NCBI RefSeq assembly: GCF_037040815.1
Contig: NZ_CP146232.1
Coordinates: 4,062,001 to 4,126,000, forward strand
Direction: 5' to 3'
DNA: 64,000 nt
Source: Pararoseomonas sp. SCSIO 73927
Lineage (GTDB): Bacteria; Pseudomonadota; Alphaproteobacteria; Acetobacterales; Acetobacteraceae
Part shown: piece by piece, positions 41,208 to 49,717 of the stretch
How the letters are laid out: every line of letters starts with the position of its first letter
Position numbering within the stretch: the stretch's first letter is position 1
The notes under the pieces: model-generated
The model's database searches: none
Seen by the model: only the letters and a program-made list of their open reading frames with translations
What the model was told of the DNA's origin: nothing
Position numbers and translations under genes: made by a program

Positions 41208-41912
41208 CTACTCCGCCGATCCCAGCCTATAGCCCACGCCCGGCTCCGTCCGGATCAGCCCCGCCGCCTCGCCAAGCTTCTGGCGGAGGTGCCCGATATA
41301 GACGCGCAGGTACTGCGCATCCTCCGCGTGCCCCGGCCCCCAAACGGCGAGAAGAAGCTGGCGCTGCGTCACCACCCGGCCGGCCCCCGCACGCGCCAGG
41401 GCGGCCAGCAGGGCCCACTCGCGCGGCGTCAGCCGCAGGTGCGCGTCGTTCAGCCTCGCCATGCGGCCGGCCAGGTCCACCTCCAGCGGCCCCACCCGGA
41501 TCACCGCCTCCGTCGCGCCCCCGCCGCGCGCCGCGGCCCGGCGCAGCGCGGCCCGGAGCCGCGCCAGCAGCTCTCCCAGCGCGAAGGGCTTCTCCACGTA
41601 GTCGTCCGCCCCGGCATCCAGGGCGGCCACCTTGCCCTCCTCCCTGTCCCGGGCGGAGAGGACGATGATCGGCGCCTCCGTGAAGCCGCGCAGCCGGGGG
41701 ATCACCGCCTGCCCGTCCAGGTCGGGCAGGCCGAGGTCGAGCAGGATGGCTGCGGGGGCGAAGGAGGCGGCCAGGCGCAGCCCCTCCGCCGCATTCTCCG
41801 CCCGCAACGGCTCATAGCCCGAGGCGGCGAGGGCGGGGCCGAGGAAGCGGTGGATCTGCGCCTCGTCATCCACCACCAGCACGCGCGGCCGGGAGAGGTC
41901 CGCGCCGCTCAC
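41208..41912 (-). CDS. kdpE: Two-component response regulator KdpE
   Basis: OmpR-type regulator of 234 residues. The receiver domain has VLVVDDEAQIHRFL, phospho-acceptor Asp59 in ILLDLGLPDLDG, and YVEKPF. The DNA-binding winged helix (LTPREWALLAALARAGAGRV to RTEPGVGYRL) follows. It is translationally coupled to kdpD (4-base overlap) and expected to activate kdpFABC on the other strand through the TTTACG boxes. Confidence 0.95.
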   Translation of the reverse strand: MSGADLSRPRVLVVDDEAQIHRFLGPALAASGYEPLRAENAAEGLRLAASFAPAAILLDLGLPDLDGQAVIPRLRGFTEAPIIVLSARDREEGKVAALDAGADDYVEKPFALGELLARLRAALRRAAARGGGATEAVIRVGPLEVDLAGRMARLNDAHLRLTPREWALLAALARAGAGRVVTQRQLLLAVWGPGHAEDAQYLRVYIGHLRQKLGEAAGLIRTEPGVGYRLGSAE

Positions 41913-44623
41913 GCCCCGCCTCCCCCGATCGGGAAGCGCAGCGACATGCGCGTGCCCCTGCCGCCCCCCACCGGACTCTCGGCCGCGATCTCTCCCCCCA
42001 TGGCGCGCGTCAGGCCGCGGGCGATGGCGAGCCCCAGCCCGGTGCCGGCGGCAATGCGGTCCGTGCGGCTGGCGCGGAAGAAGGGGTCGAAGATCCGCAC
42101 CAGGTCCTCCCGCGGGATCCCCGGCCCGTCATCCTCTACCTGCACCAGCACATTCGCCCCCTCGCGCCGCGCGGCGATCGTGACACGGCCCCCCGGGCCC
42201 GAGAACTTCATCGCGTTGTCCAGCAGATTGGCCAGCACCTGATCGAGCAGCACCGGGTCGAGCGACGGGGTGGGCAGCCAGGCGCCGAGCCGCCGCTCCA
42301 GCGGGCGCCCGGCCGCGTGCTCCGCGCGCTCCGCCGCGGCCTCGATGGCGGCGGGCAGGTCCACCGGCTCGCGCCGCAGGGGCACCGCGCCGGTCTCCAC
42401 CCGCACCATGTCCAGGACGTTGGCGGCAAAGCGCCCGAGCCGCGCCGTCTCCTCCTCGGCGGCCAGGATCAGGTCGGCCCGCGCCTCCGGCGAGAGCGCG
42501 TCGCCCATGGTCCGCAGCGTCTCCAGCGATCCGCGGATGCCCGTCAGCGGCGTGCGGAGGTCGTGGCCGAGGGAGGTGAGCAGCGTCGTCCGCAGCGCGT
42601 CCGCCTCCGCCCGCGCGGCGCCGCGCGCGCGCTCCTCCATCAACTCGGCCCGCTCCAGCGCGACGGCGGCCTGGTCCAGCAGCGCGTCCAGTGCCCGGGC
42701 GCGCTCCGCGTCCAGCGGTTCGGCCCGCTCCGCGAAGCGCAGGCCAACGAGGCCGGCCACGCCCGCCCCGGTGGTCAGGGGCTGGAACTGCCAGGGCACC
42801 GCCGGCAGCGTGTCCGTGCCCCATCCCGCCGCGCCGCCGCGGGCGAAGGCCCAGCGCGCGGCGGCCATGGAAGCGTCGTCCGGCCCCGCCTCGGCGGGCG
42901 CGGCCGCGCGCACGACGAGGTCGGCCTCGTGGGTGGAAAGAGAGGCCTCCAGCCCCAGCCCCGGCAGGTCCACGCCCGTGACGGGCATCAGCACGCAGCA
43001 GGGGCAGCCCGCCACCCGCTCCGCCTCCGCCGCGATGAGGGTGAGGAGGTCGCCGCGGCTCATCGGCGCGCCCAGGCGGCGGCTGAACTCCACCAGCCGG
43101 CGCAGCCCGAAGACCCGCGCCCGCGCCGCCCGCACGGAGTGCCCGAGCCGCCCCGCCGTGCCGGCCATCAGCAGCGCGACGAGGCTGAAGACGACCGCCC
43201 CCACCACCTCCTGCGGGCCGCTGATGGTGAGGGTGTAGCGCGGCGGGATGAAGAGGAAGTTCCAGGCCAGGAAGGAGAGCACGGCCGCCGCCACGCCGTG
43301 CGCGGGGCCGAAGGCGACGGCGGAGGCGACGGTGGCCGCAAGGTACACCATGCCCAGCGCGCCCTCCGCCACGATCCCGTCCAGCCCGAAGCCGATCCCG
43401 GTGGCCGCCAGCACCAGCAGCGGCACGGAGGCGCGTGCGAGCCAGGGCGGAACGGAGCGGGGCGGGGGAGGGGAGGGGCGCCGCCCCGTGCCAACGGGAT
43501 CGGGCACGAGGTGCAGGGCGAAGTCCGTCGCCCGCCGCAGCAGCGTGGAGGAAAGGGTGCGGCCGGTCAGCCGCCGCCAGAGGGAGGGGCGCCCGCGGCC
43601 GAGCACGAGATGGGTGACGTTCCGCTCCGCCGCCGCGGCGAGGATGGCGCGGGGTACGTCGGTGTCCACCACCGTCTCCGTCTCCGCCCCCAGCGTCTCG
43701 GCGAAGCGCAGCGCAGTGCCTGGATCGCCCCCCGCCGCGCCCGGCCGTTCCACGTGCAGCGCCACGAGGGGCGCGCGCAGCGTGGCGGCGATGCGCTGCG
43801 CATGGCGCACCACGTTCTCCGCGGCGGGATCGCCCCCCACCAGCACCATCACGCGGTCGCCGGTCGGCCAGGGGCCGGAGATGGCGTTGGCGCGCATGTA
43901 GCCGGTGACGTCCGCGTCCACCCGCTCCGCCGTGCGGCGCAGCGCCATTTCCCGCAGCGCGGCGAGGTTGCCCTCGCGGAAGAAGCCGCGGAGGGCGCGC
44001 TCCGCCTGGTCCGCGCGATACACCTTGCCCTGGCGCAGCCGCTCCAGCAGCTCGGCGGGCGGGATGTCGATCAGCTCCACCGCGTCGGCGCCCGCCAGCA
44101 CACCGTCCGGCACCGTCTCCGCCACGCGCACGCCGGTGATGCGCGCAACGGCGTCGGACAGGCTCTCCAGGTGCTGCACGTTCATCGCCGTCCAGACCTC
44201 GATCCCGGCGGCGCGCAGCTCCTCCACGTCCTGCCAGCGCTTGGGGTGGCGGCTGCCCGGCGCGTTGGTATGCGGCAGCTCGTCCAGCACGAGGATCGCC
44301 GGCCGGCGGGCCAGCGCCCCGTCCAGGTCGAACTCCTCCAGCGCCTGGCCGCGGTAGTCCAGCCGGGCGCGGGGCAGCACCTCCAGCCCCGCGAGCTGCG
44401 CGGCCGTCTCCGCGCGCCCGTGCGTCTCGGCCAGGCCCACCACCACATCCGTGCCGCCCAGCGCGCGGCGGCGCGCCTCCGTCAGCATCTCGAAGGTCTT
44501 GCCCACGCCCGGGGCGGCACCGAGGAACACCTTCAGCCGGCCTCGCCCCTCCCGCCGCGCCGCATCGAGCAGGGCGTCGGGATCCGGGCGGGGCGGCTCG
44601 GCAGGTCGTGTGGAGGACGGCAT
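41909..44623 (-). CDS. kdpD: Potassium sensor histidine kinase KdpD
   Basis: Protein of 904 residues. The N-terminal KdpD domain has the P-loop GAAPGVGKTFEML near residue 35 and VLDELPHTNAPGSRHPKRWQ. A universal-stress-like domain follows (about 250-370), then four membrane helices (about 400-500), a GAF-like region, the HisKA motif SLGHDLRTPLTG (His687) and the HATPase domain (NLLDNAMKFSGPGG, FFRASRTDRIAAGTGLGLAI). It senses K+ limitation and osmotic stress. The order matches full-length KdpD. Confidence 0.96.
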   Translation of the reverse strand: MPSSTRPAEPPRPDPDALLDAARREGRGRLKVFLGAAPGVGKTFEMLTEARRRALGGTDVVVGLAETHGRAETAAQLAGLEVLPRARLDYRGQALEEFDLDGALARRPAILVLDELPHTNAPGSRHPKRWQDVEELRAAGIEVWTAMNVQHLESLSDAVARITGVRVAETVPDGVLAGADAVELIDIPPAELLERLRQGKVYRADQAERALRGFFREGNLAALREMALRRTAERVDADVTGYMRANAISGPWPTGDRVMVLVGGDPAAENVVRHAQRIAATLRAPLVALHVERPGAAGGDPGTALRFAETLGAETETVVDTDVPRAILAAAAERNVTHLVLGRGRPSLWRRLTGRTLSSTLLRRATDFALHLVPDPVGTGRRPSPPPPRSVPPWLARASVPLLVLAATGIGFGLDGIVAEGALGMVYLAATVASAVAFGPAHGVAAAVLSFLAWNFLFIPPRYTLTISGPQEVVGAVVFSLVALLMAGTAGRLGHSVRAARARVFGLRRLVEFSRRLGAPMSRGDLLTLIAAEAERVAGCPCCVLMPVTGVDLPGLGLEASLSTHEADLVVRAAAPAEAGPDDASMAAARWAFARGGAAGWGTDTLPAVPWQFQPLTTGAGVAGLVGLRFAERAEPLDAERARALDALLDQAAVALERAELMEERARGAARAEADALRTTLLTSLGHDLRTPLTGIRGSLETLRTMGDALSPEARADLILAAEEETARLGRFAANVLDMVRVETGAVPLRREPVDLPAAIEAAAERAEHAAGRPLERRLGAWLPTPSLDPVLLDQVLANLLDNAMKFSGPGGRVTIAARREGANVLVQVEDDGPGIPREDLVRIFDPFFRASRTDRIAAGTGLGLAIARGLTRAMGGEIAAESPVGGGRGTRMSLRFPIGGGGA

Positions 44624-44671: not shown

Positions 44672-44947
44672 CTAGGATTTCGCATGGCCGGCGAGGAAGC
44701 CCAAGACGAGCGCGACGGCGGCAATCACCACCGCCCCGGCCAGCCACAGCATGGCGTGGGCCGGATTGGCCGTGGCCGGGCTGCGTAGGCCCATGGCGAG
44801 CGATCCGAAGAGGCCCCAGAGCAGCAGGGCCAGGAAGGCGCAGAGCCCGGTGCGGCCGGGCGGGATGCGCCTGGCGAAGGTGAGGCTTCCGCCCGGGCCG
44901 AGGGATGAGCGGTGCAGCCCCGGCAGAGGCGCGATGGCGGCCGACAT
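44672..44947 (-). CDS. Small two-helix membrane protein upstream of kdpDE
   Basis: Protein of 91 residues with two hydrophobic segments (LCAFLALLLWGLFGSLAMGL and LWLAGAVVIAAVALVLGFLA) and a basic N-terminal half. A GGGGAG ribosome site fixes ATG 44947. It is the first gene after the kdp control region on the minus strand, 48 bases before kdpD, so it should be expressed with kdpDE. The family is not recognised; a role in K+ sensing is only positional inference. Confidence 0.6.
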   Translation of the reverse strand: MSAAIAPLPGLHRSSLGPGGSLTFARRIPPGRTGLCAFLALLLWGLFGSLAMGLRSPATANPAHAMLWLAGAVVIAAVALVLGFLAGHAKS

Positions 44948-44994
44948 GCTCCCACTCCCCGAGGCGCGAACCCGCGGGAGTCTGGCGAAGGGCA

Positions 44995-45115
44995 CGTAAA
45001 GGCGCGATGCCGGGAACGGGCGCCCGGCATAAAGGCCGCGTAAAAACGAGAGGTTACCTCCGGGCTTTACGCGCTTTTTACGGGGCTGCCCGCCTTCCCG
45101 AATGGTGTTTTTACG
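44995..45115. promoter_or_regulatory. Dyad-symmetric array of KdpE-like boxes between divergent kdp units
   Basis: TTTACG occurs on the plus strand at 45066-45071, 45077-45082 and 45110-45115. On the minus strand the same hexamer (TTTATG in one copy) occurs at 45039-45044, 45028-45033 and 44995-45000. Both arms have the spacing 11 then 33 bases, mirror-symmetric about 45055, so all boxes lie on one DNA face. The boxes resemble the T-rich direct repeats bound by KdpE in E. coli. Control of both units by KdpE is inferred. Confidence 0.62.
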
Positions 45116-45169
45116 CCCGCGGGACTGAATCCCTGTGCAGTCGCCGGCCCGTGCCGGCAGGGAACCGCC

Positions 45170-45253
45170 ATGCTCGACATCCTCCTCCTCGCGCTCGGCC
45201 TCGGGGCCTTCGCGCTCCTCGCGGCCTATGCCGCCGCCTGCGAACGGGTCTGA
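45170..45253 (+). CDS. 27-residue membrane peptide preceding kdpF
   Basis: Tiny protein, essentially a single hydrophobic helix (MLDILLLALGLGAFALLAAY) ending CERV. An AGGGAA ribosome site lies about 6 bases before the ATG. It starts with the same MLD as the KdpF-like peptide 6 bases downstream and may be an accessory small subunit of the Kdp pump. Confidence 0.6.
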   Translation: MLDILLLALGLGAFALLAAYAAACERV

Positions 45254-45259
45254 CGCGCC

Positions 45260-45346
45260 GTGCTCGACCTCATCCTCGGCGGTGCCGTCTCCGCCGGCCT
45301 CCTGGCCTATCTCCTGTGGGCGCTGCTGCGCCCCGAGAGCCTGTGA
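45260..45346 (+). CDS. kdpF: K+-transporting ATPase subunit KdpF
   Basis: Peptide of 28 residues, start GTG. A single helix (DLILGGAVSAGLLAYLLWAL) ends in RPES, the typical KdpF form, which stabilises the KdpABC complex in the inner membrane. It lies 16 bases before kdpA. Confidence 0.75.
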   Translation: MLDLILGGAVSAGLLAYLLWALLRPESL

Positions 45347-45362
45347 TCCGGATCTCTGACCC

Positions 45363-47060
45363 ATGACCATCCTCGGCTGGGCGCAGATCGCGCTCGTCCT
45401 CGCGCTCACCGTGGCGGCCGCCGTACCGCTCGGGCGCTACATCGCCGCCGTCGCCGACGGCCGCGTCACCTGGCTGCGGCCGGTGGAAGCCCTGTTCTAC
45501 CGCGCCGGCGGGGTTGATCCCGGGCGCGGGCAGGACTGGCGCGGCTACGTCCTCGCCATGCTCGCCGCCAATGCCGCCGGCTTCGTGCTGCTCTTCGCGA
45601 TCCTGCGCCTGCAGGGCGTGCTGCCGCTGAACCCGGCGGGCGTTTCCGGCATGTCCTCCTGGCTCGCCTTCAACACGGCCGTCAGCTTCGTCACCAACAC
45701 GAACTGGCAGGCCTATTCGGGCGAGGTCGCGGCCTCCTACCTGTCCCAGATGGCCGGGCTGGCGGTGCAGAACTTCCTCTCGGCCGCGACCGGCATGGCC
45801 CTTGCCCTCGCCGTCTCACGCGCCTTCGCGCGCGGTGGGGTGCGGGAGCTCGGGAACTTCTGGGCGGACCTCACCCGCGTCACGCTCTATGTCCTTCTGC
45901 CGCTGGCGGTGGTGCTGGGCCTCGTCTTCGTCGCGCTCGGCATGCCGCAGACCTTCGCGGGCTACGTCACCGCCACCACGCTGGAGGGGGCGGAGCAGAC
46001 GGTCCCGCTCGGCCCGGCCGCTTTCCAGATCGCCATCAAGCACCTCGGCACCAATGGCGGCGGCTTCTTCGGCGTGAACTCGCTCCACCCCTTCGAGGGG
46101 CCGGACGCGATCGCGACCGCGCTGCAGATCATGGCGCAGGCCGTGATCCCCTTCGCGCTCTGCCTCGCCTTCGGGCGCATCGTCGGCGACATCCGCCAGG
46201 GCCGCGCGCTGCTGGCGGTGATGCTCGGCTTCGTCGTGGCCGCCACCGCCGCCATCTACGCCGCCGAGGCCGCGGGCAACCCGTTGATGACGGCCATGGG
46301 CGTCGATCCGGCGCTCGGCAACATGGAGGGCAAGGACCTCCGCTTCGGCCTGCCGCTCGTCGCGCTCTTCACTGCCACCACCACGGGCGCCTCCTGCGGC
46401 GCGGTGAACGCGATGCTGGACAGCTTCACGCCGCTGGGCGGGATGGTCCCCCTGTTTCTCATCCAGCTCGGCGAGGTGCTGCCGGGCGGCGTGGGATCGG
46501 GCCTCTACGGCATGCTCGTCTTCGCCCTGCTGGCGGTGTTCGTCGCCGGGCTGATGGTGGGGCGCACGCCGGAATACCTGGGCAAGAAGGTGCAGGCGCG
46601 GGAGATCAAGCTGGCCATGCTGGCGGTGCTGATCCTGCCCACCGCGATCCTCGGCTTCACCGCCGTCTCGGTCGTGCTGCCACTGGCCGCCTCCTCCATC
46701 CAGGATGCCGGGCCGCACGGGCTGACGGAAATGCTCTACGCCTACACCTCCGCGGCGGGGAACAACGGCTCGGCCTTCGGCGGCCTGACCTCCGACACGC
46801 CCTGGCTGAACACCACCCTCGGCATCGCCATGCTGCTCGGGCGCTTCGCCTTCGTGGTGCCCGTCATGGCCATCGCTGGCTCCCTCGCCGCCAAGGCCAA
46901 GGCGCCGGAGGGCTCGGGCACCTTCCCCACCCACGGTCCGCTCTTCGCCGGGCTGCTGGCGGGCGTGATCCTCATCCTCGGCGGGCTGCAGTTCCTGCCC
47001 TCCCTCACCCTCGGGCCGATCGCGGAGCACTTCACGATGCTCGCCGGCAAGTCCTTCTGA
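45363..47060 (+). CDS. kdpA: K+-transporting ATPase potassium-binding subunit KdpA
   Basis: Polytopic channel-like subunit of 565 residues. It carries the four degenerate selectivity-filter repeats of the K+ transporter superfamily, visible around [49 protein letters not shown] and [15 protein letters not shown]. It binds and passes K+ into KdpB of the complex. Length and order are standard. Confidence 0.96.
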
Positions 47061-47068
47061 GGCACACC

Positions 47069-49129
<2,061 letters not shown>

Positions 49130-49132
49130 GCC

Positions 49133-49717
49133 ATGTCCATCCTTCGTCCCGCCGCCACGGTCGTCCTCGGCTTCACCCTTCTCCTCGGCCTCGCCGTCCC
49201 GGCGGCGATGACCACGGTCGCCGGCGCGTTGATGCCGCATCAGGCTAGCGGCTCCCTCGTCGAGCGCGACGGGCGCGTGGTCGGCTCCGCGCTCATCGGC
49301 CAGAACTTCACGGCGGACCGCTACTTCCACCCGCGCCCCTCGGCCACCAGCGCGGCCGACCCGCAGGACAGCAGCAAGACCGTCGATTCGCCCTACAACG
49401 CCGCTGCCAGCGCCGCCTCCCAGCGCGGGCCGACGAGCGGCGCGCTGCTGGACGCGGTGCGGGAGCGGGTGGCGGAGGCCGGGCCGGCGCCTGTGCCGGC
49501 CGATGCCGTCACTGCCTCCGGCTCCGGCCTCGACCCCGACATCAGCCCGGAGAACGCGGCCCGCCAGGTCGCGCGGGTGGCGCGGGCGCGGGGCATGCCG
49601 GAGGACCGGCTGCGCGCGCTGGTGGCCGCCAACACCGAAGGGCCCGCGCTGGGCCTCCTGGGCGTGCCGCGCGTGAACGTCCTGCGGCTCAACATGGCGC
49701 TCGACGAGGCGCGCTGA
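49133..49717 (+). CDS. kdpC: K+-transporting ATPase subunit KdpC
   Basis: Protein of 194 residues. One N-terminal helix (AATVVLGFTLLLGLAVPAAM) and a periplasmic domain with SALIGQNFTADRYFHPRPSA and SGSGLDPDISPENAARQVAR, the KdpC signatures. It is a structural or chaperone-like subunit of the pump and the last gene of the operon; a hairpin follows. Confidence 0.95.
   Translation: MSILRPAATVVLGFTLLLGLAVPAAMTTVAGALMPHQASGSLVERDGRVVGSALIGQNFTADRYFHPRPSATSAADPQDSSKTVDSPYNAAASAASQRGPTSGALLDAVRERVAEAGPAPVPADAVTASGSGLDPDISPENAARQVARVARARGMPEDRLRALVAANTEGPALGLLGVPRVNVLRLNMALDEAR

Follow-up and report, generated by a model that had tools for sequence, protein, structure and literature searches.

Two back-to-back KdpE promoters predicted in a divergent kdp locus: an unusual, well-conserved arrangement

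KdpD and KdpE form a textbook two-component system. The operator of E. coli KdpE is described, in the available text of PMC3264566, as a pair of half-sites lying upstream of the promoter; the protein binds TTTATA-N5-TTTACA and its footprint extends from -72 to -50, which corresponds to site A, as defined below, alone. Binding of KdpE to the kdpFABC promoter is also reported for Sinorhizobium fredii in the accessible part of PMC9239096. The pho box of E. coli, target of PhoB, usually lies near the -10 element, in place of the -35 element (PMC4971064, text available in part). As in the locus presented here, the kdpDE and kdpFABC operons of M. tuberculosis are divergent and share an intergenic region (PMC8358298); unlike here, M. 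smegmatis KdpE is associated with a 22-bp site and a SigF promoter (PMC5401905). No mention of a mirrored array was found in the available portions of these two mycobacterial reports. The accessible main texts of the KdpE and PhoB literature, as distinct from supplements such as the kdp alignment in Fig. S3 of PMC3264566, describe neither a mirrored array of KdpE boxes nor a core promoter that contains a second KdpE site. Within the KdpE literature we found no description of a fixed two-site module, of a specificity code, of a mirrored pair or of a second target such as those considered below. The locus appears to combine an ordinary regulator with an unusual and well-conserved arrangement, namely two back-to-back KdpE promoters.

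Layout of the kdp intergenic region

In the window (the whole 64-kb stretch of DNA that was analysed), direct reading places TTTAYG hexamers at 44995, 45028 and 45039 on the minus strand and at 45066, 45077 and 45110 on the plus strand. A first-pass annotation had claimed six TTTACG or TTTATG boxes on opposite strands, and all six are real and lie exactly where it had put them. The equal spacing that it had noted, 11 and then 33 from the inner to the outer box, is also borne out in both arms. Each arm is predicted to be a single KdpE-type promoter module, in which boxes occupy registers 0, 11 and 44 and register 33 holds a degenerate half-site. We read this module as a site A (registers 0 and 11) and a site B (registers 33 and 44), the latter putatively replacing the -35 element. 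The features of both arms and of the flanking genes are as follows.

45066..45071, plus strand: right arm box 1, TTTACG, proposed first half-site of site A; register 0 of the conserved module
45077..45082, plus strand: right arm box 2, TTTACG, proposed second half-site of site A; register 11
45099..45104, plus strand: degenerate half-site CGAATG, proposed upstream half of site B; register 33, module consensus A-T-S-G at 36-39
45110..45115, plus strand: right arm box 3, TTTACG, proposed downstream half-site of site B; register 44
45126..45131, plus strand: proposed -10-like element TGAATC of a kdpFABC promoter; a weak match, placed from the A-rich signal at 61-62
45039..45044, minus strand: left arm box 1, TTTACG; direct reading and relatives
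45028..45033, minus strand: left arm box 2, TTTATG; direct reading and relatives
45006..45011, minus strand: degenerate half-site GGCATC within CATCGCGCC; register 33, from the module consensus
44995..45000, minus strand: left arm box 3, TTTACG; direct reading and relatives
44979..44984, minus strand: proposed -10-like element CAGACT of a kdpDE promoter; a weak match, in the same register as in the right arm
44672..44947, minus strand: ORF for a 91-aa small membrane protein with two hydrophobic stretches (judged by eye); first ORF past the left promoter
41909..44623, minus strand: kdpD (PF02702, E 1.7e-91)
41208..41912, minus strand: kdpE (Response_reg and Trans_reg_C)
45170..45253, plus strand: small ORF of 27 aa, first ORF past the right promoter; direct reading
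45260..45346, plus strand: ORF of 28 aa with a GTG start, which we take to be kdpF-like from its resemblance; direct reading
45363..47060, plus strand: kdpA (PF03814, E 1.5e-226)
47069..49129, plus strand: kdpB (E1-E2 ATPase)
49133..49717, plus strand: kdpC (PF02669)

The minus strand carries, in this order, the small membrane-protein ORF, kdpD and kdpE, and the plus strand two very small ORFs followed by kdpA, kdpB and kdpC. The start codon of the 91-aa ORF lies 47 bp past left box 3, the ORF is upstream of kdpD, and its product matched no Pfam family above the family's cut-off.

The array accounts for six of the seven TTTAYG hexamers of the window (shuffles predict 2.9). In the 5.59-Mb genome, the pattern TTTAYG-N5-TTTAYG has two matches, both in the kdp intergenic region, and its reversed control has none; the full three-box array, with up to three mismatches allowed, has three matches and again none for the reversed control. 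The mirror axis of the six boxes, 45055, is exact. It had been taken as a sign of more order than chance would give; this part of the claim does not stand as separate evidence because any inverted pair of one module has an exact axis. The statement that all spacings are multiples of 11 is correct within the arms (11 and 33) and fails between them, the inner boxes of the two arms being 27 bp apart.

Site A is of the same hexamer class as the operator of E. coli kdpFABC, with the same 5-bp spacer and the same orientation toward kdp: two TTTAYN half-sites stand as direct repeats upstream of the kdp genes. Unlike E. coli, the window has two inverted copies, its boxes end in G, and a further box is found at +33. 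Compared with promoters carrying pho boxes, the direct repeats are shared and site B seems likewise to be placed near the -10 element; the box sequence and the regulator are different, and here two sites stand at a fixed distance of 33 bp.

The module upstream of kdpA and the recognition helix of KdpE

Conservation was assessed in several samples. KdpA was present in 125 of 200 genomes of the family, and 118 of these loci were analysed; loci were added from the window's genus (10), from the best 80 named contigs and from a second genus (13, two of whose genomes had already been sampled). A phylum-wide draw found KdpA in 80 of 249 genomes, and 70 loci were analysed, that of E. coli among them. 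The closest named relatives among the matches listed are Roseomonas species. Divergence of kdpD from kdpA was seen in 8 of the 118 family loci, the others being colinear or having no KdpD in the stretch examined.

Repeated hexamers were sought, with no motif given in advance, in 205 different regions upstream of kdpA. Offsets of 11, 33 and 44 were found in 97, 80 and 69 loci, respectively, compared with 17-19 in shuffled sequences; the lower peaks fell mostly on multiples of three, the pattern expected of coding ORFs. In the 70 phylum-wide regions the same offsets led with 34, 23 and 23 loci (next 18, median 10), counts that include unthinned close relatives and one region whose masked run of N adds one to every offset. 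The comparison of the intergenic region across relatives, which the first-pass annotation had proposed, shows that boxes and spacing are kept. An origin of the boxes as chance repeats has in its favour solely that the motif is short; it is rejected, as its probability is practically nil given the rarity of the paired and full patterns in the genome and the conservation in relatives of the offsets, of box 3 and of the left arm.

The third box was tested by picking the best pair of boxes 11 bp apart blind to box 3. This was feasible at 122 of 204 loci (82 had no unique clear pair, and L150 had been dropped as too near the end of its contig). The best offset for a third box was +44, where 4.43 of 6 letters match boxes 1 and 2 (next 2.36, median 1.39). 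The first three letters of box 3 track those of boxes 1 and 2 at 2.39 of 3; 5000 permutations gave a mean of 1.68, an sd of 0.06 and a maximum of 1.90, a comparison that overstates the number of independent cases because box type follows kinship. One protein would read all three boxes. Alignment of the 107 modules whose third box matches at least 4 letters gave the consensus box, N5, box, N16, a half-site with A-T-S-G at 36-39, and a full box at 44, with a weak A-rich signal at 61-62, where the -10 element is proposed. In terms of a PhoB-like layout of site B, box 3 and the register-33 half-site are clear and the -10 signal is weak. Among ten loci chosen from 71 for closer inspection, two clear pairs were present in five (E. 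coli, L318, L319, L330 and L333), a partial second pair in L323 and L332, and a weak one or none in L326, L316 and L341. Since the footprint of E. coli KdpE covers site A alone, site B may be weak, may need polymerase or may stay unbound. These comparative data point to an extra half-site, or an extra site, within the core promoter.

In E. coli K-12 (L151 2810-2905, minus strand), a second KdpE-like pair, TTTGCG-N5-TTTGCA, is found 32 bp beyond the published site on its downstream side, with TACCCT a further 10 bp on. The available part of the published operator description (PMC3264566) was found to make no mention of this pair.

The boxes of any one locus are of a single sequence type, which is TTTAYG or CCTATG in most cases; the commonest sets among the 122 loci were TTT-TTT-TTT (42 loci) and CCT-CCT-CCT (18 loci). 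Box type was compared with the recognition helix at 51 loci having equal boxes 1 and 2 and a KdpE sequence, with residues in E. coli numbering. In the CCT loci, residue 191 is Gln (19 of 20) and residue 197 Arg (19 of 20); in the TTT loci the same positions hold Tyr (25 of 26) and Gly (22 of 26), respectively. This association rests mainly on TTT versus CCT, with kinship uncounted, the rarer types TAT (2 loci), TTG (1) and CTT (2) being too few to judge. The two exceptions at residue 191 come from KdpE matches that lack R193 and R200 and are probably not KdpE. On a KdpA tree of 95 tips, box type requires at least 15 changes, compared with 38 for shuffled labels; it has changed repeatedly, yet it also follows kinship. 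The letters of the box and residues 191 and 197 may constitute a natural specificity code. In an alignment to 4kny and E. coli KdpE, the KdpE of the window carries the counterparts of R193, R200 and T215, which contact DNA.

These data also bear on the possibility that the boxes serve another regulator of the OmpR/PhoB type. Direct half-sites 11 bp apart would suit that whole family, and one genome keeps the module before another gene (see below) with no kdpA or KdpD found. Box type, however, tracks the recognition helix of each locus's own KdpE, and E. coli KdpE itself binds TTTAYA repeats (PMC3264566, available text), which leaves another regulator very improbable. The claim of a KdpE-type operator serving both operons is well supported by the kept boxes and spacing and by the tracking of box type with the helix.

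It is very probable, in our judgement, that the array comprises two divergent promoters, placed back to back and activated by KdpE, by which pump and sensor would be switched on together. From the sequence, its conservation, the association of box type with the helix and the genes that each arm faces, we infer the following course. In each arm, the upstream site A, with two direct half-sites 11 bp apart, would be occupied by a KdpE dimer; site B, 33 bp beyond, would have the full box as its downstream half, its degenerate upstream half lying at -35, and about 11 bp would separate box 3 from the -10 element. Upon K+ limitation KdpD would phosphorylate KdpE, and KdpE-P would fill A and B on both arms and recruit RNA polymerase. 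The right arm would then transcribe the two small ORFs and kdpABC, and the left arm the small membrane-protein gene and kdpDE, which would amount to positive feedback.

The inverted arm and its distance from the right arm

The left arm was surveyed in loci whose KdpA is at least 70% identical to that of the window, together with the second-genus and related additions, giving 27 distinct divergent loci. It is present in 18 of them, scoring 16-18 of 18 box positions; the carriers are all 13 kdp-bearing genomes of the window's genus and five of the second genus. It is absent from the other nine (L035, L043 with 12 of 18, L074, L114, L123, L171, L172, L269 and L276) and from all 13 colinear loci examined (best score 12 of 18). 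Nine of the 18 carriers (the window itself, L155, L161, L153, L154, L163, L034, L159 and L164) have an ORF of 90-99 aa whose start lies at +97/98 when counted from left box 1, that of L161 diverging in its second half. Longer, similar-looking ORFs are found at other offsets in L273 and L278, and in L033, L162 and L275 no more than about 170 bp separate left box 1 from the start of kdpD.

As the start of a small ORF or of kdpD closely follows it, the left arm most likely drives kdpDE. It could restore a self-activation for which read-through may suffice when kdpFABCDE is one colinear operon, a possible route to self-control of the sensor genes after their split from the pump operon. Such feedback is not essential, since nine of the 27 divergent loci are without a left arm. 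The same absences are what favours the view that the right arm alone is functional and the left arm either a decoy or what is left of an inverted duplication. Against this view, all 13 kdp-bearing genomes of the genus retain the arm at 16-18 of 18, half of the carriers have the 90-99-aa ORF at +97/98, and identity outside the boxes is near background, which argues against a recent copy; we consider a decoy or relic improbable. Outside the boxes the two arms of one genome are identical at a mean of 0.38 (0.42 in the window), compared with 0.363 between genomes. Because the arms are hardly more alike within than between genomes, a recent inverted duplication is unlikely and was rejected. Of the duplicated and inverted promoter module suggested at first, the inverted module is thus well supported by the comparison and a recent duplication is not.

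The two promoters proposed here could act independently or as one coupled KdpE nucleoprotein complex with a selected helical phase. In the 18 genomes with two arms, the inner boxes are 18 bp (one genome), 27-30 bp (nine) or 37-39 bp (eight) apart, and the phases of these gaps span 3.5 of 10.5 bp. A search of 397 family genomes with any gap of 11-41 matched 19 (reversed pattern, 4); 15 of these matches are at kdp, with gaps solely of 27-30 or 37-39, and those away from kdp are in G040, G054, G255 and G260. Both the restricted gap lengths and their narrow arc of phases speak for a coupled complex. On the other hand, the Rayleigh p of 2.6e-6 treats related genomes as independent and is not used as a probability; with five lineage representatives of our own choosing, p is 0.007-0.016. 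The distance from the right arm to kdpA, taken as a control, also gives an R of 0.62, compared with 0.845 for the inner gap, and the gap of the window is not a multiple of 11. On the KdpA tree, two or three steps of nearly 10 bp suffice because the clade holding gaps of 27-28 and 37-39 is poorly resolved; the genome with a gap of 18 groups apart from it. Once kinship is counted, the gaps are a weak hint of helical coupling between the arms. The single joint complex over both operons that had been proposed keeps this hint in its favour and loses the argument from symmetry, and we give it limited credence.

Modules upstream of an orphan gene family

Allowing up to two mismatches, the array occurs 35 times in 15 genomes of the genus, compared with one occurrence of the reversed control. 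The two kdp arms of 13 genomes make up 26 of these occurrences, and nine lie elsewhere. The eight of these that were inspected (all but G208:C34) precede members of one family of about 185 aa, as judged from translations and sequence comparison, and the start codon lies 22-35 bp past box 3. The first member has no Pfam family, and of 24 members one was matched by Pfam; a profile search of the PDB returned weak leads at best (E 0.072, rRNA methyltransferase).

A search with a single sequence found this orphan family in at least 35 of 299 family genomes. Thirty loci were taken, 28 could be placed, and a self-consistent 0/11/44 array lies upstream in 16 of the 28, whereas 14 alternative sets of offsets gave 0-2 of 28 each. 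We relied on these offset controls because the null windows, of which 72 of 732 reached a score of at least 23, overlap and contain true modules. Box type agrees between kdp and orphan promoters in nine of nine genomes where both score well (9 of 21 genomes; permutation p 0.012, kinship uncounted); among the 12 genomes dropped from this comparison, G057 and G091 disagree in box type. The orphan gene of about 185 aa can be named as a candidate new member of the KdpE regulon. A wider reading holds that proteobacterial kdp promoters, that of E. coli included, would consist of two KdpE dimer sites 32-33 bp apart, the second inside the core promoter, that two of them would in this clade be joined back to back in a fixed helical phase, so that pump and sensor answer to one switch, and that KdpE would also control the orphan gene; it is rather unlikely to hold in all its parts jointly.

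In the genome of the window, a third KdpE-type module with one mismatch precedes a 188-aa orphan protein (G000:C1:61532-62179; L356 900-1550, minus strand). This gene adjoins one resembling that of dihydrodipicolinate synthase (dapA-like), and the 16 of 28 homologue loci that carry the module include it. The place of orphan gene and module varies within the genus (L356, L373 and L357): next to the dapA-like gene in G000, on other contigs or far from kdp in G203 and G102, and about 4 kb from the kdp operator in G200, G206 and G210. In G159, a member of the genus, array and orphan gene are kept (G159:C3:330963-331550; L363, L396), and neither kdpA nor KdpD was found in this genome. In G260 (L251, L268, about 1400-1700), about 2 kb before kdpA, a full module stands back to back with an inverted one that scores lower (15 of 18); the inverted module faces an ORF resembling the orphan family, and the other faces an ORF that looks, by eye, like that of a secreted protein.
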